A stretch of 47,422 bases of DNA from a virus. Position numbers and translations under genes: made by a program. Of the stretch, positions 1 to 19,286 are shown piece by piece. Within the stretch, counting starts at the first letter, position 1; every line of letters begins with the position of its first letter. A model generated the notes under the pieces. The model worked only from the letters and a program-made list of their open reading frames with translations, searched no databases and was not told the origin of the DNA. Location of the stretch: IMG/VR virus record IMGVR_UViG_3300025030_000169, positions 1 to 47,422 of that record; one strand, 5' to 3'.

Positions 1-3000
1 CGCTGGATGATATGCTGAATCTCGTGGTGAACGGTGCTGCGTGCCGCCTCGTTATCCATCCGCGAGTTGACATAGATCGTCACATCCTGCGGGGAAAATA
101 TTCCTCTGCGGTTTGGCCCCAATGACCGGAAGGCGATGTTCACGCCCTTGAGGAATGGGTATGCCTGGAACAGTCCGCGGTCTTTCAGGACATCCGACAG
201 TTTGCCGTCGCGCATCTCGAGCGAAGAAAGGCTGTCGTCAAGTTCGAAACTCCATTGTCCCGGGACGATCTCCCACCAACCGGTTTCCTTCCAGATGTCC
301 TCGCGGGGCTTGCCGGCGGCTTTCATCTCCTGGGCCTTGGCCAGTTTGCCGGTGTCGGCTGTGGTGGCATTTTTGCCGGCAAAAGAGAATAGCGGATTTC
401 CGGCGCCGTCACTCCACTCTTCCATGGATGAATCTTTGACGGGTGCCATGGCGATAAGGACATTACCCTTTCTCGTCACCTCGCCGAAATACTGACGCAC
501 TTCATCCTCATACCAGGCGGTCTTCTGGTGATTTTGCCATGAAGCGGGAGCGCCGTTGACTACCTTTGTAACCCGGCTGTTGCCGTCACCGTCGCCTTCA
601 TGGATCTGGAAATAGGCGGTACCGTCTGCTTTGATAGCCTTGGCCGCCTGTCGAATTACCGCCAAGCGAACAGGCTTCTCTTTGATGACATTCAGCACAT
701 TATTTACGGTCGCCGTGTCGGTCCTGTTGGCCGTCAATTCTTTGACAACATCTTGGTTATGCTCGGCCGATCTGTTGAAAGGATCGTAGACCAAGTTCTT
801 TATTCCTTGTTCCTTCAGGTATTCCGTCCCGGCGTCATACTTTCCACCGCCGATGTCGACATTGACGGTTCCCGGCTTGAGGAAGTTTTTCTTGAAGAGT
901 GCCGGGACTTGGTTCAATGAAGTTGCGGCCGAAGAGATAGCCTGCAGGACCTTCTCGGAGAACATCGGCGCGGCCATGTTGCTGCCCTGGATATCCCCCC
1001 CGCGCTTCACCGCGCTGATCGCCATGACCCGCAGGTCATCGACAGACAGGTAATTGACGAACCGGTTACCGAACACCCTGATCAGGATCTTCTTGGCCGC
1101 TGCCATGATACGGCGGACTACTCCCGACTCCGGAGCGTCCTCGACCATGTAGGCCATGACCTCGCTCCAGTAGTGCTCAGACTTCGTGCTCTTCGGCACC
1201 CTGGCCATCGCGGCGCGGATCGCCCGGCCGGTCCTGCCGGATTCTCTCTGCCGCTTCGACAGGGACCGCTCTATTGCCTGATACTCCCTGTCCTTGAGCA
1301 TCAGTTTGCGGAGGTGAACGCCAACCTCATGGTTGAGGACATCGCCGGCCCGGCCTTTCTGAATGCCATCGGCCACGAGCCATGACTTGGTGCCATCGGT
1401 GAAACCTTGGATGGTGCGGCCGTCTTCTGAGTGGAGGATATCCGGAGATGTCAGCCGGTCGATGACCTCCATGGCTTCTTCCTGGGTGCCGACGAAATCA
1501 ACCGCCCCGGATTCCACGAGAGAGGTGAAGGTCTCTTCGCCGATGGTGGAGCGCAGTTCGTCTTCCAGTTGCGCCACGGTGCGGCCGGTGGTGGTGCCGC
1601 CGGACTTCGAATATTCGACACCGAGTTTCGCCTTTTCCACTTCCTTCGCCACGGCATCTTCTGAAGCATTGCTTTTCTTCCGGCTCTCCAGTTCCCGCTC
1701 GACCGCCGTCAGCCGCTCCCCTTTCTGCTTCAGATCATCTTCTTTGGCAAATGGCTTTCCCGCCACTTCCTTGTAGGTAGGCAAGTCCTTCTCGGCTGTC
1801 GCAAGAAGACGGGCTTCATTGTTTGCCCTTGATGAGATATCTTCGATGGTGTCCAGGGTGCCGCGGAACAATGAAGGCATCGCCGTGTGCGCCCGGTTGG
1901 CGGCGAGGGTCGAGGCATAACTCTGGTTGACGAGGTAGGATTGCTTCCCGCCGGGAAGGTCTATTCGGCGCTCAAAGAAGAATTCAACCTGTTTTTTACG
2001 ATCAACAACCTTGTGCTTCTCATAACCGACAGCCGACATCGAAACCTGCATGGAAAGATCGATATCGATACCATGAACAGTGACGGTCCCGAGCATGATC
2101 TCATCGGATTCGGAAAAGTCCGGATCCTGCTTTTCAATCTGCTCGAGTTTAGCATTGGCCAGGGCAACGACTTCCTTGGTGGCCTCGCCACGCTGCTTGA
2201 AGGACTTGCCGTTGATCTTCATGGCAAAGAAAGCGGCATCGCCCAAGACCGCATGCAGGGCATCCTCGGCCTTGACTTTGGCCCGGTACTTCTTGCCGTC
2301 GATGGTGACGGAAAAAGGTTCCGCGCCTTCCTTCTTCGACTCTTCGATCAGTTTATCCAGGGCCTTCCTGGCGTCGGAGCCGCCATAAGTGGTGCCGTCG
2401 ATGTCGACGGTGGCCGACTCCCACTTTCGCCGCTCGTCGGCGGTGGCCTTCTCGACTGTCTTCGCCGCAGACTCCAACTCCTTGATCATGGCCGGCGCCG
2501 TCTCGATGGTCCGTTCCATCCGGTGAATGGTGTCTTCGGCCGCCCATCTTTGCCGCTCATGTGCCCGCTTCAGCCGCTCAAGTTTGTCGATCTCGGCCGA
2601 CAACTGCACCCGCTCAAGCTGCAGCGGTTCTCCGGAGGCGATAGCCGCAATCTCGGCCATGCCAACGGCATCGGTATCGTCAAACTCCATAGTGAAAGAG
2701 CCGTCATACTGCCGAATGCCGTTGATCATCTTCAACTTGGTGGAATTGAGCGCCCACATCTTGGCATCGACGGTGGTGTCGGTGGTATAGGCCAGGATTT
2801 CCACCTCGAAGTTATCCCGGATAGAATTGCCGTTTTCATCAAAACCGATTCTATTGCCCTGACGGATGATGCGCCCCTCGCGCTGTTCGATGTCGGAAGG
2901 CTTCCAGGTGACATCGACATGGTGAAGGCCGACGAGCCGCTCCTGAACGTTGGTCCCGGCGCCCATTCGCGGAGTGGAGCCGATAAGCACCCGCACCGCG

Positions 3001-6000
3001 CCGCTGTTCACTTCCTCGAAGAGGAATTTCTTCTTCTCGTCGGTGTCGGCTTCCTGGATAAACCGGATCTCGTTTGCGGGAATACCGCGCTCGACAAGAT
3101 TATCCTTGATCTGCTGGTAAGCGTTCCAGCCACCGGCCTGGGCAATCCTCAGTTCCTCGATCTCTACCGGGTCGAACCGCTCCAGGCTATCACCGATGCG
3201 CCTGATAGCCGCTTCATCTCCGGTGCGCTCGGCCGCCTCCAGTTTGGCCATGAGCTCGTCGTAGGTCTTGATGATCTTGTCATCGCCTTTCGCCTTGGGG
3301 ACGCTCCGGTCCAGGAAGATAAGTTGGGTGCCCTTTTCGGCCGTCCATTTGCGATGGAGCCGCACAACTTCATCGGATACCCTGGAGAGTTTTCCGCCTT
3401 CCTCGTTGCTGTCGATACCTGGCCTAGCCGCCCGGGCATCGAGTGAAACCTTTCTGGCCCGGTCCATCAGCCGCAGGCGCGCCTTATTACGCTCTTTCGG
3501 ATCGGTGATGCTTTCCAGTCCGTCAAAGCCGCTGATGATGTCCTCGATGATTCCGCGCTGTGCCGGCGTCGGTTTGACGTTGATACCCACCCGGCCGCCG
3601 CCCTTGACTTTCGGCAAGGGAAATTGAGCGCCGTTGTTGTCCTCGGCGTACCACTTCTGAATATCGTCATTCGATACGCAATCGGCGAAGGTGTAGTAAA
3701 GGTCCATGAGGGACCGGGTATTCGTCCAGTCGCGGCCAAGGCGGGAAACCTCCTTGAGGCCCTTGCCGGAATCGGTCGGCTCGAAGGCGCTGTTGACGGA
3801 AGCGAAGTTGTTTCGCCAGGCGTCGAAATGTTCCAGACCGTGCTCCTCAAGGAGTTCCGGCACCAGGTAGCGCATAAGGGTATACATCTCGACCGCGCTG
3901 TTCGATATCGGGGTGCCGGTCATGAAGGCGATGGAGCCGTTTTTCATCTCGTGAAGGACACGTGTTTTTGTCCACAAATCGTAGGCTTTTCCAGACCCGC
4001 CTTTCGGCCCCATGCCGCGCACGTTGAGGCTTGAAGTGTAGAACAAATTTTTCCCGATATCGTGTTCTTCGTCGACGGTCAGGTCATCAACTCCCAACTG
4101 CTCAAAAGTGAGGAGTCGGTCTTTCTTCCCGCTCTTCTCCTTTACCTGGGCCAGCCGGTTCTTGATCTTGTCGCGCAGGGCTTCCGCCTCTTTCACGGCC
4201 AACGGTTTTCGGAAACTTCCGCCATCATGCCCGGTTTCTGCCAGTGCTTCCTTCACGGCTTCCTCAGCAATGGCCAGCTCTGCTTCCAGGTATCTGGTCT
4301 CGGTAGCCGGAGAAATGCCGATAAACTGGAAAGAGGAATGCGGGACGATAACCATATCCCAATCGCCGGTTGCGATCTTGGCGAATATCCGGCGGCGCTT
4401 TGCCGGGACCAGATCTGACTTGCCGGCGGCCAGCAGCTTGGCCCCCGGGTAGAGCTTATAAACGTCCTTGGCAAACTGCTCGACAAGATGGTTCGGGACA
4501 ACGATCATTGGCTTACGGGAAAGCCCCATGCGCTTTCGCTCGAGCGCCCTGGCTATGCTGGTAAAGGTCTTGCCGCTACCGACAGCATGGTCGAAGAGAA
4601 CAACATTATCGACGATCCCGCGCCATATGGCGTTCTTCTGGTGCCGGCGCATGGCAATGATGGCATCTGGCACCTTCCCCGGGAACTGCAGGTGTTGCCC
4701 GTCGCGCTGCTTGGTGACCCGGACATTGAATTTGTCGTTGAAGATTTTTACCAACCTGTTCCGGCGGTCGGAGTCCTTGAATACCCATGCGTCGAATTCA
4801 TCCTTGATCTCGGCAGCCTTGGCTATTGCCGCATCGGTCGCCTCCTGGTCGACATGAGTTTTCCCTTCATGGTCGGTGTAGGTGACTTTGATCGGCCGAT
4901 TGTTGAGGATGGCGTCCACGAGCGCAACTGGACTCCGTTGCTGAGTGCCCCAATTACTCGGACCGGCCGTCCTGCCCTGAACATGGAAGGTGTTTGTGGT
5001 GCGGAAATACTTCACCTCTGCCGGGCTCTTGGTCAGGTGAGAAAGGAAATCGGCATAGACATCCGCCGGAATCCACACGCCGCCGATGGTCGCCGTCACC
5101 TTGTCGGCGGTCCACGGCTCCGGCAGCACCTTCTCCAGGGCCTTGGCGTTCTTCTCCAGGCCTTTGGCCTTGGCCGCCGCCATCTTCCTCACAACATTAC
5201 CGCCGAGATATTCGTCGGCCGGTTCCCACCTGTCAGTTTCCGGATCGAAGAAGATGAGCGGGGTATCGAGGTCGTCATGCAGGGCCTTGACGGTCTCATC
5301 CTCGCTCTTGCCCAACAGTTCGGCCACTCTCTCAAGGCTGATTCGTCCGGTCTCCGACAGGTTGATGGCCAGGGCGTCGGCGGGCGTCGCCGCCGTGGTG
5401 GCCTTCTCTACCGGGGAGATGACCCGCTTGCTCAAGATGGTGGCCTGCTCAACCATGGCCTGTTGAGGCGCTATGCCGAGTTTCTTCGCCTTGTCCTTAT
5501 CGATCGGCGGTTTGTACTTGCTTTCCAGGGAGAGGAGCAGGGCACTGTTCGGCATGCCTGCCAGGATGTTGGCCGTCTTCCTGTCGTTGATATGCGAGTG
5601 CTCTTTCACATAGGCGTCATACTGCCGGCGCAGTTTCGCCCGGTTGCTCTCCATCTCCTTCTCGGATGAATCGGAAGTCTCGAGGTTGATCTGCTTGGTG
5701 AGGGTTTCGAGAAGCTGTATAGAGTCGCGCAGGCGATTATACCCCGGCTCGCCGAGTTTCATGTTGGCCGGAATGTCGCTTTCCTTCTCGAATACTTCTC
5801 GGGTTTTCTGGTTCCGCTTGGTCGCCTTGTCACCGACAACCACCTTGACCTTCGCCCCCTTTTCATCAACCTTGTCGACATCGCGGAACCACTTGCCGTC
5901 CTTGTCCATGCTGAGAGCCGATGACCAGGGGGAAGATGGTGTGATAACCCGCTTGGATAGAATGGTGTCTCCGCCGTCGGTCTCGCGGTCGATAACCTGC

Positions 6001-9000
6001 TCCAGTTCGCCAAACTCATTGAATGAGATGGAACCCAATTCCTGACCGGAGAGGGAAATCTTCATGGCGTCGACCATGTTCTTGAAATACTGCGCCTGCT
6101 TGTCGGCTGGTGCCACTTCAACGGCGATATCCGCCGGCATGGTCTTGATGATCTTGTCTAGGCGCGCTGCAATGTCCTCGGACTTGTCGAGTTTCACATT
6201 GACGTTGGTCCCGGATCCCCGCATGGAGCCGGATCGTTCCAGTCGGCCGATAACCGCTGCCGGGTTCGATTTGAAATAGGCGTTGACCCTCATCGGCTCG
6301 CCGCCGAGCGGATCTGGAATGGTTGTGGTTTCCACCCACTCAGGATCTGGCAGGGTGATCTTCTGTTTTGCGGCGGTCTCCCGGGCGGTCTCCATCGCCG
6401 AGAGTTCGCGCTCGGTGTATTTCTGCAGGAAGAGAACATCCGTCACGACATCGGTCTTGGCATTCTCCTTGAAAGCCGTATCCGGCAGCCGGATGGCGGC
6501 CAGGAGTTTTCCTTTTCCAGCCAACAGTTTACGAACGGTGGTATCCTTTCCGTCCATCAGGTAGCGCGAAACCACCATCACCTGCAGGCCGCCGGGCTTC
6601 AGAGCGTCCATCCCGGCTAGGAAGAACTGGTGATGAATCGTGTAGGGATTGAGGTCCGGATTGTGCGGGAAGTTGAGCCGGTCTTGCCCGAAAGGCGGAT
6701 TGCCGATTACCAGGTCAAAGCTGTTTTCAGGCAATGGAAGATCCTGGAAACCGGAATGGAATACTGCGGCGTTCGGGTAGAGGTGCTTGGCAATGCCGGC
6801 CGTGATATTGTCGTACTCGACCGCCATCATGTTGGTATTGCCGGCCAGGGATTCCGGCATCAGACCAAGGAAGTTGCCGACACCAACAGAAGGCTCCAAG
6901 ACGTTGCCGCCCTTGAACCCCATGCGCTCGACCGCCTTCCACATCGCATTCACGACCGGGAAACTGGTGTAGTGCGCGGCCTTGGTGCTGTTCCTGGCAA
7001 CGGCCAGTTCTTCTGGTGTCAGGATCTTCTCGAGTTCGGCAACACGATCCTCCCAGCCGCTCTTTACCTCGCCGGTTACGCCATTGCGGAAGGAATTGGC
7101 CAGCCCGCCCCAGCCGACATACCGGGCGAGGGCGCGTTGCTCATCCGGAGTAGCCCGGCGCTTTTCTGATTCGAGTTTCTTGAGGATTTTGATAGCGGCG
7201 AGATTGTCGTTGAACTTCACGGTCTCACCGCCTTGACCGAGACGAACGTCTTCGGTAATGCGGAAATTTACTGCGGGAGTGGTGGCTGGGCCGCTTACTC
7301 TCTTTCCATCTCCTCTACCACTTCCTTCTCCGGTTTCAGAAGAATGTACCTCGGCAACATCACCTCTTCCGCCTCGTGGTGCTGATACCCCGCCTGCATC
7401 AGGCTTCTTATTCCCTCCTGCGTTCTTTCGGCCGCCTTGAGCGCTTCCGCCTGCAGGAGCCCGGCCGCTTCCAGTGCCGCCGCTTCCTTCGGACGCCATT
7501 CCTTCCAGTGCATTATCGCCTGGACCTGCAGCTGCTTCGTCGTCTGCCCGTACTGACTTCCCTTCACCTGACTGATTTTCGTTATCGGCATATGGTTCAC
7601 CTCCCCTTTCTTCAAGCGTACTCTTGTTAGGCTTTTCTGTCAACTCGACTTCGAGGTTTCCATTCCGCACGTCCTTGACGAATCGCTGCAGGTAGGGCCG
7701 GATCTTGTCACCGAATTGTCCGTAGAAGTAATTGATGAGTTCCTTGACGGAATACCCAAGATCCTTTACTCCATTCCAGGCGTTGACGAAATGAGGCTTG
7801 GCCTTTTGATATGTCTCCTCATCGAATGCCGGCCCCATCCTGATGGTATTCGGATCGCCGAAAAGAGCAGTGAGACCGGCCATGGCGTCCTTGACCGCCG
7901 ACTGCGCGGCAATGCCGCCTTCCTTGACGATCTGCCCGGCGGTCTTCTTCGGCGCTGGCGGACTCGGCGGGTTGCTCTTCGGCGGCCGGGGGGCGATCGG
8001 CGCTTTCGGTTCACGGGGAGGCTTCGGCGGTTCGGCAGTCTTTGGCGGTTTCTCGGCTGCCCGTTCCTGGTCTACCTCGTCAAAGAGATTGTCGATATCA
8101 TCATCCGACATTTCCTGGAGTTGTTCCAGGGTCGACTTCGGATCTGCCTCTGGCCTTTCCTCGACAAGACGAACATTATCGGAAGTGGTCTCGAAAGATT
8201 CCCCGTTTTCCAGGGATATGGAAACAAGAGGTTTTTGTCTGCCGATCTGGACGAACCGGCTGACGCTTCCACGTTCGCCCTTGTTTTCGCCGTTGGTTAT
8301 TACCACCTGGTCGTTGGGGTAGAAACGATCTTCAGTTGTGGTGCTATTCGCCTCGATCTGCGCTTTCTGCTCGGGAGTTACGAGGTCTTTCAGAATGGAC
8401 GGAACCACTTTCGGCTGCACCTCATCAAACAGGTACATCTCGGCCGAATCCTTGTCGGACTGGCTGGGCTTCTCAAGGTTGTGCCGGAACATGCGGGCGT
8501 TGTAATTGTCGCCCCGGGACTCGGCCTCGGCCAGGGCGTTTTCCATCAACCACCGGTCCACCCGCTTCAAGGTGTTCTCGGCCTTTCTGTTCGAGTCGGT
8601 TGCCACTTTCGGAAAAGGAGAGGTCTGCCGGCCGGTCGCGGTGAGGCGCACGTCGCCTTCAGCCAGCATTTCGCCGGTTTTGCCGCGGGGAATGGATATC
8701 CCGGAATTTTCCAACCCTTTGACGTTTTGATTTTCGGTTCCGGAACTGGTTTTGTTTTCTGTTTTCGAATTCTCTGAGGTCTGGCCTGTTTTTCCCCCTG
8801 GGTCGCCGGTGAGGTGCTGCTCACGAATGAACCACCCGCCATCCTTCTTGAAGGTGAATTTGTCGATGGCCTTTGCTTCTTTCCAGGTAATGTCGGTGCG
8901 GACTATTCCGCGAATGGTCTTGCCTTTCTTGGTGACGTGCTCAACGATATTGTCTTTTTTTGGTGTTGTTGAGTTAGGAATATTATTTTCTATAATTTCA

Positions 9001-11867
9001 ATGGCGCTAGCCGTTTCATCACCGGCCTGTTTCTGCTCCATTTTCTCCGGGTAAAGTTTCGCGATACCGTTTTTCGCCCACTGGTTATTGCTGTACGCCT
9101 GCAGAACAGGAAGAGGAACGGGAAGATCAAACCGCAACGCTTCTTTCACAGAGCGCGGATGTGCAGCCAGGCGGATGGCCTTTTCGTCGGTATCTGTGAT
9201 CCCTGCGGTGTACTCTTTGGGAGTCATTTGATATGGACTCTTTTCAGAAACAGTGGCTTTCGTTTCGGCATTCGCAAATTCGACTTTTGGCATTCCGAAA
9301 GTGGGTTTTCGGAATGTGTCCTTTTTCGATTTCGTCTCAGAAAAGACAGTTCTTTCTCGGACGAATACACCTTGGCTTGGCCCTTTTCCGCTCACCCATT
9401 TCTTGAATACCGGCATGGCGATTCGAGTAACAGATTTGCCACCTGTCCACCCTGCCTCATAACTGGAATTGTAGAGGGCAAGGGCTTCCTGCTCGCTATT
9501 CACGCCAGCCACGACCTTGTGCTCATCGAAAGAACCATCTGCCTTGTGCTGGTTGACCACGTAGACATTATCCGCCCCGCCCTGATAGCCGGGTTTCACC
9601 ATGATATCGACATGATCCTTATCATACCCCTTGGACCCGAGTATGCGGCCGTAGTCGGCCTTCATCTCCTGGGACCATTCTTTGCCTGAAGCGTCCTTGC
9701 CGGAGCGCACCGAGCCGGCCGGGTTTTCGATGGAAAGACTCAGCCCGTCGATTGAAGCCTTGGCGGTCTTGTAGTTCTCAGCTTCCTTTTGGGCTTCGGT
9801 CGGCGCGAGGTTGATATCCTTGCCGTGGACGATGGAGGAAGGATTGTCTACCGTGTTCTTAGGCGCCGCCTGGACGCTCTGTTCCCCGGTGCCGCCTTCC
9901 AACCCTGTGGTACGAATATCCCCTTGCTGAACAGATCCTCCATCTGTTTTCCCGTCAGATACAAGTGAGCCGCTTCCCGCCCCGTCTGTTCCTTGTGGTA
10001 GAGAGCCAATCTCTCTATATCCTGGATACTTATTGATCTGCCCATCTGTCTCTCCTTCTGGTTGATTTGCAAAAGCCGCTGCGGCATCATCAAGGCGCGC
10101 CTGTCTCCCCTCCACATCGACCATGGCCGGCGTCTGTTCCTGGTTCATGAACGCCTGAGCGGATTCTTCGGCGGTCGGCGGTCGGCCTGTACGGTTCGCT
10201 TCCAACTCTTCCATGGAAAGCTCTCGGTCAGCCAAACCCTGCTTTAGATTCTCGAATCGCTGCTTTCTGGTCCTGGTGTCGGCCATGCCCTGTTCGTCTT
10301 CTGCCTGGCCCGTCAGGTCCCACATCAGGTCGCGAGTCTCTTCCGGGAATTGCTGATTGAGGACATCGGCGTCTATCTGGTCCCTGGCCCCTTCCGGAAG
10401 GATGGGGGAGTAGCCCTGCTGCTGGTCCGGACCATAGCCAGGCTCTTGGCCGGGAACCGGAATACCGAGATGATCAAACACCCCTTCCTTCACGAACCGG
10501 TCTTTGGCGTCCTGGGGAAGTTGCGGATCATTGAAGAATTCGAGTGCAGCATTGACCCGCTGTGCTCGGTCATCTTCTGATTCGACAGGTGAACCGGTGA
10601 GTATCCCGGCCAGTTCGACGGCGGCTTGAGAGTCGGGAGAGTCGGTATTCTCGCTGTTGAGTGATTCACCGAGAAGGGCATTGACCTCGTTTTCAAGAGG
10701 GTCTGTGCTTGCTGATCGGCGGATAGGCCTTCCGGCGGCAACGTCTTCAAGAGCTGCAACGCGCCACTGATCAGCGTCAGGGACCTTGTTCTCCTTGGCC
10801 GACTCATAAAGTGCGTTGACTATTTCCGCCCTGGTTTCCGGTTCGGTGGCTTTCGGGTCGTTCAGGGCGTTGTCAACCGCTTCGGCATGCTGTGACCGGC
10901 GATAAGAGGCATGCAGGCCAAACGGCGCGAGCCAGGCGGTCATGCCGAGCGTCGGTAGGATTGACGCCTTGGCCTGTTCAATTGGATCGGTGTTGACGCC
11001 AGCGTTCTTTTCGACTGTGGCTTGGCCGTAGTTCTGGCCCATCTCCGTTAATGTTTCGCCTATAGCTGTCTTGACCAATGCCTTGGCAAACGGCCGAAGG
11101 ATTTCTTTGTTGGTGGCTTGGCCAATGACACTCGAGATGGTTTTTCCCGCACCAATGCCGAGCAGATCTTTACCGAAACCGAGAAACTTTCCGCCAATAT
11201 AGGTGCCGAGAGTTTCACCGGCAGTCTCGATTGCGCCAGACTTCCAGCCGGCAGTTTCGGCTGCCTCCTCGGTGCCGCCTGCTTCCATGACCGCTTCTTT
11301 CGTCTGCTGCGCCTGGGCCATGCCCATAGGAACGGCTCCACCAAGGGCGGTAAGTCCAAGGCCTATGCCGCCGGCAGTCAACGCTTCCGGCAGGAGGGCA
11401 ACACCGGCACCCACGGCCAGTGCAGGGACAATCGATGACGGAATCATCTCTGCGCCTTGAGCGAGGGTATTGGTGACGGCACTATGGTCTTCCGGGTGAA
11501 GCTGGTTCTCCGGACGCTCAAGGTATGCTTTACGGTTTTCCGCCAGACTTTTTCCGTAATGCGCCAGGCCCTGGGCCTTTTCCTTGCCGATGATGTTTTC
11601 GGTAACGGGTGATTCCGTTCCCCACTGAAGCGCCTGACCGGCCATCTCCGGAAGGACACCCAAGGTGCCACGCTTCCATGCGGTGCCGAGTTCTCCAAGT
11701 GCTGACCGCGGCTCCTGCGGCTTAGGGGTGTTCGCGATAGATTCTACCTGATCAAACACACTGAGACTTTTGCCGGCTGTCGCGTTTTGAACAGGTGGCG
11801 GGACCGGATCGGAAGCGTCGATAGAAGAGGATATCCGAGAATCTACATCATCAAAGATGTTGCCCAT
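1..11867 (-). CDS. Giant phage polyvalent protein (methyltransferase-helicase-peptidase), 3' end cut by window edge
   Basis: A single frame stays open from ATG at 11867 to the left edge, more than 3955 residues. Seen in order: small-residue-rich hydrophobic stretches (about 140-275); a pyrophosphatase-like core GRILGSKGYDKDHVDIM (740); KOW-like NDQVVITNGENKGERG (1182); Pro-rich and Gly/Ser-rich linkers; an N6-adenine methyltransferase with VLEPSVGVGNF (1655) and NPPFG (1723); a superfamily 2 helicase with GSGKT (2429), DEEH (2599), MTGTPISN and QREGRIIRQGN (2995); a coiled coil (3075-3150); HEVGVH (3513); a second SAM-methyltransferase-like domain with VDIGGGKYD (3669) and NVLNVI (3720); then an LPD23-like segment ending in HEIQH (3948). 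Such domain mixtures are known as phage/conjugative polyvalent proteins, and P1 DarB (methylase-helicase) is a virion-carried antirestriction example. Injection with the DNA is inferred. The ATG follows the previous stop by 14 nt and lacks a convincing Shine-Dalgarno, so translation is probably coupled. Confidence 0.9.
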   Translation of the reverse strand, partial: MGNIFDDVDSRISSSIDASDPVPPPVQNATAGKSLSVFDQVESIANTPKPQEPRSALGELGTAWKRGTLGVLPEMAGQALQWGTESPVTENIIGKEKAQGLAHYGKSLAENRKAYLERPENQLHPEDHSAVTNTLAQGAEMIPSSIVPALAVGAGVALLPEALTAGGIGLGLTALGGAVPMGMAQAQQTKEAVMEAGGTEEAAETAGWKSGAIETAGETLGTYIGGKFLGFGKDLLGIGAGKTISSVIGQATNKEILRPFAKALVKTAIGETLTEMGQNYGQATVEKNAGVNTDPIEQAKASILPTLGMTAWLAPFGLHASYRRSQHAEAVDNALNDPKATEPETRAEIVNALYESAKENKVPDADQWRVAALEDVAAGRPIRRSASTDPLENEVNALLGESLNSENTDSPDSQAAVELAGILTGSPVESEDDRAQRVNAALEFFNDPQLPQDAKDRFVKEGVFDHLGIPVPGQEPGYGPDQQQGYSPILPEGARDQIDADVLNQQFPEETRDLMWDLTGQAEDEQGMADTRTRKQRFENLKQGLADRELSMEELEANRTGRPPTAEESAQAFMNQEQTPAMVDVEGRQARLDDAAAAFANQPEGETDGQINKYPGYREIGSLPQGTDGAGSGSLVSDGKTDGGSVQQGDIRTTGLEGGTGEQSVQAAPKNTVDNPSSIVHGKDINLAPTEAQKEAENYKTAKASIDGLSLSIENPAGSVRSGKDASGKEWSQEMKADYGRILGSKGYDKDHVDIMVKPGYQGGADNVYVVNQHKADGSFDEHKVVAGVNSEQEALALYNSSYEAGWTGGKSVTRIAMPVFKKWVSGKGPSQGVFVRERTVFSETKSKKDTFRKPTFGMPKVEFANAETKATVSEKSPYQMTPKEYTAGITDTDEKAIRLAAHPRSVKEALRFDLPVPLPVLQAYSNNQWAKNGIAKLYPEKMEQKQAGDETASAIEIIENNIPNSTTPKKDNIVEHVTKKGKTIRGIVRTDITWKEAKAIDKFTFKKDGGWFIREQHLTGDPGGKTGQTSENSKTENKTSSGTENQNVKGLENSGISIPRGKTGEMLAEGDVRLTATGRQTSPFPKVATDSNRKAENTLKRVDRWLMENALAEAESRGDNYNARMFRHNLEKPSQSDKDSAEMYLFDEVQPKVVPSILKDLVTPEQKAQIEANSTTTEDRFYPNDQVVITNGENKGERGSVSRFVQIGRQKPLVSISLENGESFETTSDNVRLVEERPEADPKSTLEQLQEMSDDDIDNLFDEVDQERAAEKPPKTAEPPKPPREPKAPIAPRPPKSNPPSPPAPKKTAGQIVKEGGIAAQSAVKDAMAGLTALFGDPNTIRMGPAFDEETYQKAKPHFVNAWNGVKDLGYSVKELINYFYGQFGDKIRPYLQRFVKDVRNGNLEVELTEKPNKSTLEERGGEPYADNENQSGEGKSVRADDEAAAGPGDNALEGMASEGSGGTGSGRAPAGGSAQGGRKNAGGNKKPDAGGVSAPRGGRGDVAEVHSSETGEGSGRGDGKRVSGPATTPAVNFRITEDVRLGQGGETVKFNDNLAAIKILKKLESEKRRATPDEQRALARYVGWGGLANSFRNGVTGEVKSGWEDRVAELEKILTPEELAVARNSTKAAHYTSFPVVNAMWKAVERMGFKGGNVLEPSVGVGNFLGLMPESLAGNTNMMAVEYDNITAGIAKHLYPNAAVFHSGFQDLPLPENSFDLVIGNPPFGQDRLNFPHNPDLNPYTIHHQFFLAGMDALKPGGLQVMVVSRYLMDGKDTTVRKLLAGKGKLLAAIRLPDTAFKENAKTDVVTDVLFLQKYTERELSAMETARETAAKQKITLPDPEWVETTTIPDPLGGEPMRVNAYFKSNPAAVIGRLERSGSMRGSGTNVNVKLDKSEDIAARLDKIIKTMPADIAVEVAPADKQAQYFKNMVDAMKISLSGQELGSISFNEFGELEQVIDRETDGGDTILSKRVITPSSPWSSALSMDKDGKWFRDVDKVDEKGAKVKVVVGDKATKRNQKTREVFEKESDIPANMKLGEPGYNRLRDSIQLLETLTKQINLETSDSSEKEMESNRAKLRRQYDAYVKEHSHINDRKTANILAGMPNSALLLSLESKYKPPIDKDKAKKLGIAPQQAMVEQATILSKRVISPVEKATTAATPADALAINLSETGRISLERVAELLGKSEDETVKALHDDLDTPLIFFDPETDRWEPADEYLGGNVVRKMAAAKAKGLEKNAKALEKVLPEPWTADKVTATIGGVWIPADVYADFLSHLTKSPAEVKYFRTTNTFHVQGRTAGPSNWGTQQRSPVALVDAILNNRPIKVTYTDHEGKTHVDQEATDAAIAKAAEIKDEFDAWVFKDSDRRNRLVKIFNDKFNVRVTKQRDGQHLQFPGKVPDAIIAMRRHQKNAIWRGIVDNVVLFDHAVGSGKTFTSIARALERKRMGLSRKPMIVVPNHLVEQFAKDVYKLYPGAKLLAAGKSDLVPAKRRRIFAKIATGDWDMVIVPHSSFQFIGISPATETRYLEAELAIAEEAVKEALAETGHDGGSFRKPLAVKEAEALRDKIKNRLAQVKEKSGKKDRLLTFEQLGVDDLTVDEEHDIGKNLFYTSSLNVRGMGPKGGSGKAYDLWTKTRVLHEMKNGSIAFMTGTPISNSAVEMYTLMRYLVPELLEEHGLEHFDAWRNNFASVNSAFEPTDSGKGLKEVSRLGRDWTNTRSLMDLYYTFADCVSNDDIQKWYAEDNNGAQFPLPKVKGGGRVGINVKPTPAQRGIIEDIISGFDGLESITDPKERNKARLRLMDRARKVSLDARAARPGIDSNEEGGKLSRVSDEVVRLHRKWTAEKGTQLIFLDRSVPKAKGDDKIIKTYDELMAKLEAAERTGDEAAIRRIGDSLERFDPVEIEELRIAQAGGWNAYQQIKDNLVERGIPANEIRFIQEADTDEKKKFLFEEVNSGAVRVLIGSTPRMGAGTNVQERLVGLHHVDVTWKPSDIEQREGRIIRQGNRIGFDENGNSIRDNFEVEILAYTTDTTVDAKMWALNSTKLKMINGIRQYDGSFTMEFDDTDAVGMAEIAAIASGEPLQLERVQLSAEIDKLERLKRAHERQRWAAEDTIHRMERTIETAPAMIKELESAAKTVEKATADERRKWESATVDIDGTTYGGSDARKALDKLIEESKKEGAEPFSVTIDGKKYRAKVKAEDALHAVLGDAAFFAMKINGKSFKQRGEATKEVVALANAKLEQIEKQDPDFSESDEIMLGTVTVHGIDIDLSMQVSMSAVGYEKHKVVDRKKQVEFFFERRIDLPGGKQSYLVNQSYASTLAANRAHTAMPSLFRGTLDTIEDISSRANNEARLLATAEKDLPTYKEVAGKPFAKEDDLKQKGERLTAVERELESRKKSNASEDAVAKEVEKAKLGVEYSKSGGTTTGRTVAQLEDELRSTIGEETFTSLVESGAVDFVGTQEEAMEVIDRLTSPDILHSEDGRTIQGFTDGTKSWLVADGIQKGRAGDVLNHEVGVHLRKLMLKDREYQAIERSLSKRQRESGRTGRAIRAAMARVPKSTKSEHYWSEVMAYMVEDAPESGVVRRIMAAAKKILIRVFGNRFVNYLSVDDLRVMAISAVKRGGDIQGSNMAAPMFSEKVLQAISSAATSLNQVPALFKKNFLKPGTVNVDIGGGKYDAGTEYLKEQGIKNLVYDPFNRSAEHNQDVVKELTANRTDTATVNNVLNVIKEKPVRLAVIRQAAKAIKADGTAYFQIHEGDGDGNSRVTKVVNGAPASWQNHQKTAWYEDEVRQYFGEVTRKGNVLIAMAPVKDSSMEEWSDGAGNPLFSFAGKNATTADTGKLAKAQEMKAAGKPREDIWKETGWWEIVPGQWSFELDDSLSSLEMRDGKLSDVLKDRGLFQAYPFLKGVNIAFRSLGPNRRGIFSPQDVTIYVNSRMDNEAARSTVHHEIQHIIQ
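7295..7591 (-). CDS. Nested out-of-frame small protein inside the giant gene (98 aa)
   Basis: This ORF lies wholly inside the giant polyvalent gene in the +1 register. Its ATG (7591) follows a perfect 8-nt anti-SD complement, GGAGGTGA (7597-7604), by 5 nt. The product looks like a real soluble helical protein: it begins MPITKISQVKGSQYGQTTKQ and holds MHWKEWRPKEAAALEAAGLL, with well spread Trp, His, Tyr and charged residues and mostly G/C third positions. In the giant frame the same DNA encodes a featureless Gly/Ser/Asp linker (about residues 1425-1524), the kind of segment that tolerates a second code. A TTG 24 nt upstream is in frame but would overlap the ribosome site. Function unknown. The alternative is a chance open frame produced by Gly-rich codons; the ribosome site and composition argue against this. 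Confidence 0.6.
   Translation of the reverse strand: MPITKISQVKGSQYGQTTKQLQVQAIMHWKEWRPKEAAALEAAGLLQAEALKAAERTQEGIRSLMQAGYQHHEAEEVMLPRYILLKPEKEVVEEMERE
9848..10045 (-). CDS. Second nested out-of-frame small protein inside the giant gene (65 aa)
   Basis: The ORF begins with ATG at 10045, 6 nt after AGAAGGAG (10052-10059), a strong ribosome site. It starts MGRSISIQDIERLALYHKEQ and continues with HLYLTGKQMEDLFSKGIF, a plausible amphipathic helical protein. The C-terminal 15 residues are Arg-rich and less convincing. The overlapping part of the giant protein (about residues 607-673) is Gly/Ser/Asp-rich linker immediately before the pyrophosphatase-like domain. It uses the same alternative register as the nested ORF at 7295-7591. 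Function unknown. A chance ORF remains possible, and the evidence is weaker than for the other nested ORF. Confidence 0.42.
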   Translation of the reverse strand: MGRSISIQDIERLALYHKEQTGREAAHLYLTGKQMEDLFSKGIFVPQGWKAAPGNRASRRRLRTR

Positions 11868-11881
11868 TGAGTATATCCCAA

Positions 11882-13765
11882 TTAGTTGAATTTATTCTTT
11901 AAAGCCTTGTATTGCTCGGGATCGTTTTTGGCAAGGTCGAGAAGTACAGACATCTGTTCTGGTGAAGCGTTGTCACTATTGAAATCGTTACCGAAAAGAC
12001 TATCAATATAGCCAGGAGGGTACACGAATCTCCCTGTTCCTGGGCGTTGGACGCCTTTTTTGTCGAACTCTGGCTTTACATATGTCGGGACATCGCCTTT
12101 GTCTTTCTTCTCATCCTTGTTCGCTAGTGTTCTCAATTCTGTGGCAATAGCGCTTTTCCTTTTCGAATCGGTATCAGGAGAGAGGTATTCCTGCTGCAGT
12201 TTATTGATCGTGTCAACCTGCGCAAGTCTGCCTTCATTCAACGATGAGCTTGCCTTGTAATTACCGATCTGCGCTGTCGAGAGATTTTCATCGATAGTGT
12301 TTTTCCGATTCATCTCTTTGGCGCGATTGGCTTCCACGACAGATTGTAACCCGAGTTTCTCCCGTTCTACGCCGAGCTGCCCTTGATTCCTGGTATTAGC
12401 TCCTCCTTCGGCGATAGTCCTTTCCTCCAAAGATCCTTGGTTTGCAATTATTCTTTCGTTTAGGCTCGACCTTTGTTTCCATCCCATGCCTGGCGCATTT
12501 TCTTTCGTGAGAAGACCATCGGTTGGAGAAGATCCTTTGGTTTTCTTGCCGAGAATTCTATCTGCATTCATTGAGGCAAGCTGCCCTTGAGACAGTCCTG
12601 ATTGCTGTACCTGCGCGTCGTAACGGTTTATCTGCGCTGTAGGTCGAACAGGATTTTCCATGAATCGATTTATCGCAGATCGGTCTGTGCCTGGGGCAAA
12701 CTGCACATCGAGATTTCCAACCTGGCGAAGACTGCCAGCAGGAATCTCAGTTGCTGGTCCGGATGGGGGCCTACTGCCCTCAAGAGCATTCGCTGTTTTG
12801 AATGCAGCTACGTCACCCAAGGCTTTGCCGCCAGCATTCCCCGGGCCGATATTGGTCAACATGATTGGCCCTGTGGTGCGGTTCGTATTGTAAAGGGATG
12901 GATCGTTCGCAGGATTGGCCATTGATAGCGGCACAGCTGCCCCTGGCATGGCGGTCTGTTGTGGTTGAGAAGCAGGTGCAACAACAGGCTGAACAGCTCC
13001 TGGATTTTGCTTTGGCGACACAAACGGCTGATGTTCTGGTGTGTGCTGTGCCAACATCGAACCATCAGGCGGCTTAGGACGTTGAATAGGAGGCGTTGTT
13101 GTCGTCGGCGAGATGTTCGTCACCGCGCCATGAGGATTGGTAGCCGTGGCTCTCGCTGCCGGGATAGGAACCGGTGCGATGTCAACCCCGGAACCTCCAA
13201 CCTTTCGCTCATAGTTCGGCCCCATCAAGGCCCCAACTGCCTCGCGTTCTCCAACTGGAGTTCTATTGGCGGTCACCGGATCGTTTGCAGTATTAACGAA
13301 GTCGGCCAAAGAATTTCCGGTGGCATCCTGGACAGCACCGACTTGTGGCGCCAGTTGTCCTGCAGGCTGGGCAACATCTTTCAATCCCTGCTTTATCCCC
13401 ATGACTCTCAAATGTTCAGGAGAAGACCGCCTCCTTCTGTCCATTGCTTCTTGTCCGAGTATCGGCTCGCTGGCACCACCAGCAGAAGAAGGGCTGTTCT
13501 CCGGGGTAAATGCGCCACCAGAAAGATTCGGATCTATTTTTGATACTGACGATGCGTTGACATTGAACCGTGGCCCTGTAGATTGCGGGACAATATCTTT
13601 CAACCCCGCAACTGCCGAGCTCGCCTGATTGACGATATTTCCTGCCTGATAGCCGAGAGATGCCGATGGTGGTAGTCCTTGAGATAGCTGTCCACCTTCA
13701 GTAAAACCAGGCTTTTCTTTTCTTGCTCGCATGAATGCGTCGGTAAAATTTTCACTGGCAACCAT
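11882..13765 (-). CDS. Large disordered virion-associated protein (627 aa), function unknown
   Basis: The protein is rich in Pro, Gln, Ala, Gly, Ser and Asn over most of its length, with a proline-rich tract around residues 225-285 and charged, helix-prone segments after about 400. It has no recognisable enzyme motif and no membrane segment. ATG at 13765 follows GGAGG by 8 nt. It is the last gene before the giant polyvalent gene and follows tail genes, the position where podoviruses often encode internal or ejected proteins. A role as internal virion protein or as partner of the giant protein is inference. The 100-nt gap upstream (13766-13865) is AT-rich and holds no gene that I can support. 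Confidence 0.7.
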   Translation of the reverse strand: MVASENFTDAFMRARKEKPGFTEGGQLSQGLPPSASLGYQAGNIVNQASSAVAGLKDIVPQSTGPRFNVNASSVSKIDPNLSGGAFTPENSPSSAGGASEPILGQEAMDRRRRSSPEHLRVMGIKQGLKDVAQPAGQLAPQVGAVQDATGNSLADFVNTANDPVTANRTPVGEREAVGALMGPNYERKVGGSGVDIAPVPIPAARATATNPHGAVTNISPTTTTPPIQRPKPPDGSMLAQHTPEHQPFVSPKQNPGAVQPVVAPASQPQQTAMPGAAVPLSMANPANDPSLYNTNRTTGPIMLTNIGPGNAGGKALGDVAAFKTANALEGSRPPSGPATEIPAGSLRQVGNLDVQFAPGTDRSAINRFMENPVRPTAQINRYDAQVQQSGLSQGQLASMNADRILGKKTKGSSPTDGLLTKENAPGMGWKQRSSLNERIIANQGSLEERTIAEGGANTRNQGQLGVEREKLGLQSVVEANRAKEMNRKNTIDENLSTAQIGNYKASSSLNEGRLAQVDTINKLQQEYLSPDTDSKRKSAIATELRTLANKDEKKDKGDVPTYVKPEFDKKGVQRPGTGRFVYPPGYIDSLFGNDFNSDNASPEQMSVLLDLAKNDPEQYKALKNKFN

Positions 13766-17389: not shown

Positions 17390-17994
17390 CGCTGCACCTC
17401 CTTGAACTTCGATTCGGAGTGCGCCAAGTGGGATATCCTACAGCTGATCATTGAACACGCCTCACGGCTGGGGACCGTATAATCCCCCGTAAGCGGATCA
17501 GGCTCAAAGACCACGAGGACGAGTTGCCCTACCCTATACGGCCTCATCAGCATGGGCAGAACCCCGGAGAGCAGGACATACCGATACGTGCCTTCAAGAT
17601 TGCACACCTCAACGTCATACGTCCACGTGGGATCAAAATAGTCGTAGCAACCTCGCCTCTTCGGCCCGACGATCTGCCCGATTGCGAGATGACAGTTGCA
17701 GTAGCATTCCAGGTCCTTCCTCCTGGGTGCTCCGCCCCTGTGTGGAACGTGAATATGAACGTGCGACTCACCGAACGACGACCACACTTCAATTACAGAG
17801 CCATCTGACATTCTCCTTGTCTGGTGCTCCTGCTTGAACTTGTCGAGCCCCATCTTTTGAGCCCGGTCGATTTTTTTCTCAACGGAGATGAGCATGGAAC
17901 TTGCCCTACCAAGCAACATCTCACCGGCATGAATATTCCCGGTGATGTCCAACCTCCGAGGCACCTTCCGGAATCCGATCAGTTTCGTTGCCAT
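17386..17994 (-). CDS. Tail-module protein with Cys/His-rich patch (202 aa)
   Basis: The protein is basic and contains HVHIHVPHRGG followed by CYCNCH (about residues 80-105), a cluster of possible metal ligands. The remainder is mixed alpha/beta. ATG at 17994 overlaps the stop of the fibre-like gene (TAATG), and its own stop overlaps the next GTG start, so three tail genes form one coupled translation unit. No family recognised. A small tail connector or hub component is a guess from context. Confidence 0.68.
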   Translation of the reverse strand: MATKLIGFRKVPRRLDITGNIHAGEMLLGRASSMLISVEKKIDRAQKMGLDKFKQEHQTRRMSDGSVIEVWSSFGESHVHIHVPHRGGAPRRKDLECYCNCHLAIGQIVGPKRRGCYDYFDPTWTYDVEVCNLEGTYRYVLLSGVLPMLMRPYRVGQLVLVVFEPDPLTGDYTVPSREACSMISCRISHLAHSESKFKEVQR

Positions 17995-19286
17995 TAATGC
18001 ACCTGGTTACGGATATACCGGAGAGCGCTGGGCAAAACTGGAGAACTGTCATCCTTGAACCTGCAAACGAAAGAGGGAATTTCTGCAACCATCGAAATTC
18101 CTTGATCAACCTCATCTTCCGCTTCGGCAAACGACCCTCTAAATCTTGGCAACCTCCCTGAAAAAGAGAAGCTATATCCGGCATTGCCGGAGAATTCAGC
18201 CGAGAATGCCGGAAGTGTGGCCACCATTGAGAAGAACTGCTCGCCGCCGATCTCTGCAGAAACTTTGAATTTAGGAAGAGTGGCGAGCATGTCGAACTTC
18301 GATGAAGTTCGTATGCTGCCGGTTACAGAAAATGCCGGAAGTTGAGCATCAATTATCGCGCCGGCTTCAAACCCTGCGGTAAACTTTGGGAGTTCTGCAG
18401 TTATCCGATTTGTTGAATCACGAATGTATCCATAACCGACAAAAGACGGCATAACTGCCGTGGCTATAATATCATAAGACCTTATAACTGCATTGAATGC
18501 GGGGATGTCTGCGTCTAAAGTTGTGCCAAATCCTGCATCTGCGACAAAAGAAGGAAGTTCTCCGGAAACTGCGGCACCAAATGCAGAATAGCCGTTGAAC
18601 GATGGTAATGATCCATCTACGAGCCCACCAAAATCGACGTTACCCGTAAATGATGGAATGGTTGCATCGAGAGAAATGAAACTTGTTATGTGGATACTTG
18701 ACTCAAAAACTGGCAGGACAGCTACTGATTCAAGGCCAAACTCTAGGCTCGCCTCGAATCCTGGTATGACAGCATCGATAGCGATACTTGCAACTTCCTC
18801 TCTAAATCGTATCTCTTGAACAGCAACCCAATTGATCGATGTTCCGCTGGTCCACATCGTATTGATGATGACCAGGAGATATGGCGCATACTCGGAAGTT
18901 GAGAAATCTATCCAATCTGACCATGTATTGAATGCAGCATCGTTAACCTGATATGCTCCGATGTAAACTTCTTCACCGGCAAAAACTCCGGTTGCAGAAG
19001 CATAAACTTTGATATCTTTCGGAAAGTTTTCAGCTCCAGCATCGCCACGTCTGTTGAACTGGATTCCTGTTATCTGCTTGCTTGTGCCAAAATTCCACTT
19101 CAGCCAGCACCTATCAGATCCGTCAGGTCCATTACCTATAGACGATATCCAGCAATCAATACTGCCGCTCGACGATACACCATTAAACGCCTTCGCTGCA
19201 GTATATGAAGACGAGTAAATGCTTGACGCGGAGATCATTGCCTTGGCGGCAGTTGATCCATCGCTTTCAAAAACAACGATTGACAT
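17994..19286 (-). CDS. Fibre-like protein: discoidin-like domain plus 13 LPxF repeats (430 aa)
   Basis: Residues 1-165 resemble an F5/8 type C (discoidin, galactose-binding) beta-sandwich: AAKAFNGV, then CWLKWNFG, then ITGIQFNRRGD and DIKVYAS, in the usual order. Residues about 170-415 are 13 degenerate repeats of roughly 19-22 residues built around Asp/Ala-x-hydrophobic-Pro-x-Phe (DATIPSF, GSLPSF, GELPSF, DADIPAF, AELPKF, AQLPAF, ATLPKF and others). A carbohydrate-binding head with a repetitive beta shaft fits a receptor-binding tail fibre. No strong Shine-Dalgarno precedes ATG 19286. The repeat family is not one I can name. Confidence 0.75.
   Translation of the reverse strand: MSIVVFESDGSTAAKAMISASSIYSSSYTAAKAFNGVSSSGSIDCWISSIGNGPDGSDRCWLKWNFGTSKQITGIQFNRRGDAGAENFPKDIKVYASATGVFAGEEVYIGAYQVNDAAFNTWSDWIDFSTSEYAPYLLVIINTMWTSGTSINWVAVQEIRFREEVASIAIDAVIPGFEASLEFGLESVAVLPVFESSIHITSFISLDATIPSFTGNVDFGGLVDGSLPSFNGYSAFGAAVSGELPSFVADAGFGTTLDADIPAFNAVIRSYDIIATAVMPSFVGYGYIRDSTNRITAELPKFTAGFEAGAIIDAQLPAFSVTGSIRTSSKFDMLATLPKFKVSAEIGGEQFFSMVATLPAFSAEFSGNAGYSFSFSGRLPRFRGSFAEAEDEVDQGISMVAEIPSFVCRFKDDSSPVLPSALRYIRNQVH
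18041..18779 (-). repeat. Coding array of about 13 diverged LPxF repeats
   Basis: Within the fibre-like gene the translated repeats share hydrophobic-Pro-x-Phe at intervals of about 19-22 residues, with a Gly/Phe position half-way. DNA identity between copies is low, so this is an old, selected protein repeat and not a recent DNA duplication. Confidence 0.8.

Follow-up and report, generated by a model that had tools for sequence, protein, structure and literature searches.

DarB-like proteins are the closest described systems for the giant protein studied here; they have been defined by an LPD36 domain (GxG[GAS]), an EcoKI/TaqI-like N6 methyltransferase with NPP[YF] and a SWI2/SNF2 helicase, in that order (PMC5512222). 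It has been reported that DarB of phage P1 is packaged through an N-terminal signal, of which 30 residues suffice for capsid targeting (PMC9024508), and 51 unique peptides of the DarB-like gp69 of JC1 were obtained from purified virions (PMC9144972). The virion RNA polymerase of N4 is another point of comparison: its N-terminal domain is likely membrane-spanning and has been proposed to form an inner-membrane complex together with a periplasmic tunnel protein (PMC12633501, a 2025 preprint). Our study describes a DarB-like protein encoded in a window of viral DNA, by which we mean the whole stretch of 47,422 nucleotides that was analysed, and reports that close relatives of this protein carry very different putative entry segments on a nearly unchanged body, as if the phages traded the entry part.

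The gene for this polyvalent protein of at least 3,955 residues occupies 3..11867 on the minus strand; its open reading frame begins with an ATG at 11867 and runs without a stop up to the window's left edge. Since the virus record spans 47,422 bases and ends here, the C-terminal end of the protein is missing, and the first-pass annotation was right to speak of more than 3,955 residues. Chance does not account for 3,955 codons uninterrupted by a stop, and the same frame is open and conserved in the relatives. Upstream, on the same strand, we identified a small terminase subunit that matches PHROG 1206, an intein-bearing large terminase with a weak match to PHROG 979, a P22-type portal, a Phage_capsid_3 capsid protein, a head-closure-like protein and several genes without a match. 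Because of these virion genes, the frame at 3..11867 is taken as the last gene, within the limits of the contig, in a structural run of podovirus type that starts at the small terminase, which agrees with the earlier placement at the end of a structural operon. The gene order is that of BcepIL02, POI1126, SopranoGao, DC1, JC1, CSP3, Pavtok and PEp14, in which the lysis genes come directly after the DarB-like gene or past one or two small reverse-strand genes. Directly upstream of the DarB-like gene, a 627-aa protein without a family match is encoded at 11882..13765 on the minus strand; between sister phages this gene has conserved ends and a mosaic middle, and its position makes the protein a possible co-ejected partner. 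A 430-aa protein with an F5/8 type C (discoidin-like) domain (17994-19286, minus strand) is perhaps a sugar-binding tail protein.

The anatomy of the protein, with its motifs intact, can be read from the sequence itself, and in domain profile and motif searches most of the domains listed by the first-pass annotation were recovered: an InPase-like domain, an N6 methyltransferase and a SNF2 helicase with intact motifs, and two zincin-type motifs (all coordinates below are on the minus strand). The chain starts with a leader (aa 1-56, 11700..11867) that is kept by the window and the sister contigs L003-L006 and that is a candidate capsid-targeting signal by comparison with the N-terminal 30 residues of P1 DarB. 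It is followed by an exchangeable Gly/Ala-rich helical cassette of a type that we call A (aa 57-388, 10704..11699), which close relatives replace by types B and C. The InPase (type I pyrophosphatase-like) domain (aa 691-825, 9393..9797) was identified by Pfam at 1.9e-45, with 154.5 bits against a cut-off of 26.8; its D-x-D-x-x-D motif (DKDHVD) is common to the window, L005 and L007, and also to portal 9b41, so that both the type I pyrophosphatase core and the metal-binding acidic residues of a polyvalent-type InPase are present. A conserved core, composed of LPD36-like, methyltransferase and SNF2 helicase parts and delimited by alignment with relatives, covers aa 1491-3400 (1668..7397). Within it lie the N6-adenine methyltransferase (aa 1631-1830, 6378..6977; motif I at 1656-1668, GNPPFG at 1722; Pfam N6 methylase 1712-1820) and the SNF2-type SF2 helicase (aa 2404-3005, 2853..4658; GSGKT, DEEH, TGTP and QREGRIIRQGN; Pfam SNF2/ResIII 2404-2687 and a weak Helicase_C at 2942-3004, 0.024). 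The C-terminal block consists of a zincin-like segment (aa 3477-3600, 1068..1439) with the HExxxH motif HEVGVH at 3513, a second class-I SAM methyltransferase (aa 3640-3805, 453..950) called from a profile and a structure model, LPD23 (aa 3827-3883, 219..389; Pfam 3.2e-19) and the start of a second zincin (aa 3913-3955, 3..131), which matches DUF6782 at 0.005, or 1.1e-4 when the C-terminal piece is searched alone, and carries the HExxH motif HEIQH at 3948, at the contig edge. As for the third zincin ligand, SEVMAY was read by eye for the motif at 3513, and the contig end cuts off the zincin at 3948; against solved structures, the C-terminal piece gave an IrrE zincin at E 0.18, which is not significant. 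A third HExxxH, at 2333, lies in a stretch without a zincin match and is probably a chance occurrence.

The identity of the protein as DarB-like, proposed beforehand, is supported by a profile match to PHROG 10089 ('DarB-like antirestriction', E=0), by the alignment and motifs of the core, and by the gene order. The defining domains occur in the described order, with GWGG at 1585-1588, methyltransferase motif I, GNPPFG and helicase motifs I, Ia, II, III, V and VI. In our alignment of the core (1491-3400), which comprises the window and 27 other sequences (28 rows; L020 starts too late and was left out), NPPF is present in 27 of 28 rows, the exception being P1 DarB with NVPF; Walker A GxGK[TS] and motif II DExH are present in all 28, and motif VI QRxGR in all 27 rows that reach it. 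The first-pass annotation had named the loss of catalytic residues in all relatives as an observation that would count against it, and these 28 rows keep them. TS stands in place of the 'TP' cap in 27 of the 28 aligned rows, the window among them, so the departure from a strict TP motif was rejected as an argument against DarB-like identity. A tblastn search with residues 1-2289 matched 578 phage records, the best being the DarB-like proteins of POI1126, PBC5 and Atu_ph08, and the helicase C-terminal region was found at 40-93% identity in 23 viral loci, one of which is the L004 contig again. In one matched record (L041; Itty13, NC_070969) the annotated genes are opposite in strand to the tblastn match, and the DarB-like frame was seemingly annotated on the wrong strand. 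The full or partial proteins of loci L013-L034, several of them open at an end, have 2,055-5,837 residues, and named relatives have 2,255 (P1), 4,667, 4,841 and 4,877. Given this range the window protein is of ordinary size for its kind; that it would be larger than most was wrong, as relatives reach about 5,800 residues.

Motif II of the helicase also bears on inteins. In the DarB-like protein of L004, a 333-residue intein (L004:18338-19336), with TIGR01443 and TIGR01445 above their cut-offs, lies in this motif (DE^CHEF); at this place the window, L002 and L005, which have no intein, carry DEEHDIGK, longer by one residue than the DExHE[FMY]K or DEAHSFK of viral relatives, and this altered motif could be what the loss of an intein left behind, or a way of escaping homing. 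The large terminase gene of the window (27512-29908, minus strand) has an intein-like insert at aa 34-346, in its Walker A motif (GPLG^SAKTT); because the NCBIfam intein profiles gave no report on the insert at E 0.01, the call is based on reading the splice junctions.

The second methyltransferase (~3640-3805), near the C-terminus, was absent from the first-pass annotation and is unrelated to the N6 methyltransferase. Methyltransf_23 is matched by 19 of 26 family members (the window scores 27.0 bits at a cut-off of 27), and the family has a conserved D-x-G-x-G-K-Y motif, which reads DIGGGKY in the window. In an AlphaFold2 model with a mean pLDDT of 83.4, the best structural neighbours are SAM methyltransferases (5ufm: Z 13.0, rmsd 3.9, 168 aligned; 5cm2: Z 12.9, rmsd 3.8, 153 aligned), and the segment is thus assigned, from its predicted Rossmann-like fold and its glycine-rich motif I, to the class-I SAM methyltransferases. 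The C-terminal piece gave no match in viral contigs as a single-protein query, and an alignment-based search gave 49 loci. Among other polyvalent arrangements that we observed, the order seen in the window is inverted in the protein at L056:598-7932, which carries RadC and ART domains and whose zincin segment follows the second methyltransferase, and the phage protein at L007:9815-12469 joins an InPase domain to segments that resemble, by eye, parts of GNAT and of ATP-dependent DNA ligase.

Special attention was given to the segment behind the leader. The capsid protein of the window is present at 98-100% identity in five of five sister records (L002-L006); L002 is 100% identical to the window over the 2,658 residues covered, the core is 95-97% identical to that of the window where the contigs reach (L004, L005), and the window and L003-L006 have the leader of ~57 residues in common. 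Residues ~57-388 nevertheless belong to three unrelated Gly/Ala-rich types, namely A (window, L002, L003), B (L004, L006) and C (L005). Compared as DNA, L004 and L005 share 99.3% identity along 8.35 kb upstream of the gene and 92% in its first 191 nt, have no match across the cassette until about nt 1000-1100, and are 84-96% identical from there on. Cassette B is 98% identical in DNA between L004 and L006, and cassette A in L003, from another dataset, is 82% identical in DNA. The HMM of A matches 3 proteins, that of B 3 and that of C 16; no protein is matched by more than one type, and the hhalign probabilities are 9.9% for A/B, 0.2% for A/C and 0.1% for B/C. Since the members of each profile were inside the set searched, the independent matches are L055 for cassette B, and L031, L026, L024, L032 and L027 for cassette C, with weak ones in SopranoGao, PEp14, Pavtok, BcepIL02, JC1 and DC1. 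For cassette A, matches are confined to L003 and L016, with a weak blastp match in L013. The N-terminus that had been described as membrane-active-looking is thus real as regards composition, but does not belong to the constant part of the protein, being replaced in close relatives. It is important to note that no coupling of cassette type to neighbouring genes was observed: the cassettes of L004 and L005 differ although the tail region is 99.3% identical, those of L004 and L006 are 98% identical despite different tail regions, and the 627-aa upstream gene is 87-93% identical among L004, L005 and L006 whatever the cassette. Because cassette type follows neither the tail genes nor, visibly, the upstream gene, no partner of the cassette is identified. 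We found no description of cassette exchange in DarB-like proteins in searches of an open-access library; a possible recombination of kinase cassettes has been raised (PMC5512222), and the available text on LASTA (PMC10052179) has no occurrence of DarB, methylase or PLxRFG and discusses only tail-fibre exchange.

The same slot is exchanged in isolate genomes. The DarB-like proteins of the Klebsiella phages SopranoGao and LASTA have 99% identity in the core and 98% behind it, and differ at aa ~258-650, with seven consecutive windows under 40% identity at aa 251-650. In DNA they are 96.5% identical over nt 1-803, unaligned until nt 1960 (90%), and 97% identical from nt 3315 to the end (~9.8 kb). 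LASTA carries cassette B (33% identity to L004) and is itself a member of profile B, and the SopranoGao segment is related to C at E 2.4e-10, a weak C; with the LASTA region as query, three loci were found, two of them at 100% and 88%. A further case is L055, from the same dataset as L003 and L004, which encodes a polyvalent protein of 3,651 residues. Its leader is a different one, followed by cassette B at 69% identity; an NPPF/DarB core is absent, and the C-terminal block of the window protein (zincin, second methyltransferase, LPD23, zincin) is present, 53% identical over 3477-3955. The L055 portal is 24% identical to that of the window over part of its length, and the window capsid protein has no match in L055 and L056. 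From the arrangements in L055, L056 and Lastavirus, both ends of the window protein are assembled from modules that travel separately from the core.

How general such exchange is was evaluated in 13 pairs with a core identity of 82% or higher, where a 100-residue window under 40% identity was counted as low (L017/L024, L026/L033, L024/L027, L017/L027, L023/L030 and L023/L029, at 0.71-0.82 core identity, were left out). Low windows occur before the core in 11 of the 13 pairs, within the core in none of 12 (the thirteenth, L004/L005, has six, at the L004 intein and the L005 contig end), and after the core in four of the 11 pairs that reach the C-terminal part. Related pairs were grouped (the window, L004 and L005 with one another; L021 with L029 and L023; DC1 with CSP3, BcepIL02 and JC1), and by group low N-terminal windows are found in 7/8 and, at the first slot, in 3/8 (window group, L026/L028, Lastavirus); L021/L029 and L021/L023 hardly test the N-terminal half, as only 159 residues precede the core. 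The contrast between core and N-terminal half is partly by construction, because pairs were picked for a conserved core; the confinement of changes to discrete blocks with conserved flanks is not.

These other exchange spots bear on the alternative that survives best, according to which the cassette differences are neutral phage mosaicism: the region between leader and InPase would tolerate any helical filler and be exchanged without function. Mosaicism is general in phages, and the low windows of the survey lie at further spots of the N-terminal half (Lessievirus aa 701-751 and 1251-1301; L014/L015 1051-1151; L019/L025 617-667 and 1317-1617). On the other hand, A, B and C each recur as whole modules in unrelated phages, they are alike in length (280-330 aa) and in Gly plus Ala content (28-31%, versus 17% in the core), and one type matches the N-terminal region of virion RNA polymerases. 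We therefore regard neutral mosaicism as a possible account, but a doubtful one.

The match to virion RNA polymerases gives a clue to the role of the cassette. The N-terminal part of PHROG 2206 ('virion RNA polymerase') is matched by cassette C at 1.9e-6 and by the SopranoGao segment at 7.4e-19; the latter also matches PHROG 938 (endolysin) and PHROG 342 (internal virion protein with endolysin domain). The slot may accordingly hold an exchangeable entry module, a function suggested by sequence relationship, and A and B would do the same job as C by equivalence of their slot. Cassette A of the window does not match PHROG 2206, and searches of phage records, PHROG and genome contigs gave none for it, so the role proposed for A is based on this equivalence. 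Further observations count against the entry role: at the hydropathy cut-off used, A has a single transmembrane-like stretch (141-159), while B and C have none, no partner that varies with the cassette was found, and a structure model of A from a three-sequence alignment was all helical and uninformative (mean pLDDT 36). Pfam gave no telling match on the exchanged segments. A search of the SopranoGao cassette against solved structures returned three rows at E about 0.8, all of one prion-protein entry group, which were rejected as chance. Instead of an entry module, the cassette could be a variable anti-defence or effector domain under arms-race selection. Its exchange independently of the tail genes and of the tested upstream gene would fit an intracellular target, and polyvalent proteins are rich in such domains (PMC5512222); against this stand the absence of an enzymatic family match for any cassette, the Gly/Ala-rich helical composition, the position adjoining the leader and the match of C to virion RNA polymerase N-termini, and we consider an anti-defence cassette unlikely.

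The reading that we favour, and hold to be probable, is that the DarB-like protein is packaged in a podovirus head and ejected with the DNA, that its modules act as outlined below, and that the slot is exchanged by recombination. The leader of ~57 residues would target the protein to the capsid, and its conservation in front of an exchanged cassette is as expected if a constant capsid has to accept it. Next, the helical cassette rich in Gly and Ala (aa 57-388) would insert into the inner membrane or dock there, where the ejection conduit ends, and anchor or thread the chain. The SNF2 motor, in the cytoplasm or at the pore, would move along the entering DNA while the fused N6-adenine methyltransferase modified it against type I-like restriction, and the InPase, the second methyltransferase and the zincins may be auxiliary or self-processing modules. 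The cassette slot, whose exchange is evident from the sequences, would be swapped by recombination within one phage lineage and between unrelated phages, with leader and core staying. By analogy with P1 DarB and JC1 gp69, it is plausible that the window protein is virion-carried and injected, and protection of the entering DNA is suggested by family analogy; the antirestriction role of P1 DarB transfers by analogy because that protein has no NPP motif and is distant (22-31% identity in pieces). For the takeover role put forward by the first-pass annotation, nothing speaks except the extra enzyme domains.

It is also conceivable that the protein acts mainly in the cell after late expression, or as an internal head scaffold, without any antirestriction role. 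According to the available text of PMC9144972, a search of JC1 gave no homologues of the other P1 proteins (the P1-type accessories being DarA, DdrA, DdrB, Hdf and Ulx), which would fit such a role; the methyltransferase and motor motifs are, however, kept at ~50% core identity across unrelated viruses, which argues for an enzymatic role on DNA and makes this alternative improbable. Least credible of all is that the cassette differences are assembly chimeras, a suspicion raised by window-group contigs that all come from metagenomes and in several cases end inside the gene, because B is found in two contigs of different datasets (L004, L006) at 98% DNA identity, A in a contig of another dataset (L003) at 82%, all frames stay open, and a swap at the matching position is also present between two isolate genomes, those of LASTA and SopranoGao.

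Tentatively, and with more doubt than for packaging and ejection as such, DarB-like proteins could be regarded as polymorphic platforms for delivery. Two of their parts would be constant, the leader for capsid targeting and the methyltransferase-translocase for protection of the DNA, and two exchangeable, the cassette for entry at the inner membrane and the enzymatic tail. Other ejected proteins (virion RNA polymerases, polyvalent proteins lacking DarB) would draw their cassettes from the same pool, and selection on the cassette would act at the host inner membrane, for example through entry cofactors or through superinfection exclusion, independently of the host range set by tail fibres. The slot bears on the open question of how a giant protein passes from the phage head through two membranes. 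If it holds an entry module, the near-identical natural pairs L004/L005 and LASTA/SopranoGao are ready-made experiments on the inner-membrane step. Were the platform view correct, there would be a second, inner-membrane determinant of host range, exchanged independently of the tail fibres, and ejected proteins would draw on a common pool of entry modules.

Compared with known systems, the window protein is similar in setting to those of the Lessievirus or Bcep22-like phages (BcepIL02 gp70, 4667 aa; JC1 gp69, 4515 aa), which are likewise giant and encoded by the last virion gene before the lysis genes. The methyltransferase and SNF2 helicase core is common to both (31-33% identity by pieces), whereas leader, cassette and C-terminal half differ, these proteins are not among the phage matches listed for the second methyltransferase, and the lytic transglycosylase domain published for the Lessievirus proteins was not found by Pfam in the part of the protein present in the window. 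The best named matches of the core (38-44% by pieces) are the DarB-like proteins of PBC5, POI1126 and Atu_ph08 (4841-4877 aa), whose N- and C-terminal parts are unrelated to those of the window. P1 DarB (2255 aa) has the same methyltransferase and SNF2 motor at about half the length, with GNVPFG where the window has GNPPFG. The Lastavirus proteins of LASTA and SopranoGao have the same slot, with cassette families B and, weakly, C, and a core 37% identical to that of the window in the best pieces, but their leader is a 258-aa segment, transglycosylase-like by eye, that differs from the window leader. In N4-type virion RNA polymerases (PHROG 2206), an N-terminal region related to cassette C, with no match to cassette A, precedes a different payload, an RNA polymerase. 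KVP40.0066 and similar stand-alone phage proteins of ~175-230 aa belong to the same family as the second methyltransferase (29%; 49 loci), and are free small proteins in large-phage contigs, whereas in the window this domain is fused. The window protein is a noteworthy variant within a described kind of protein, on account of the exchanged slot, of cassettes that are used again with other payloads, and of the second methyltransferase.
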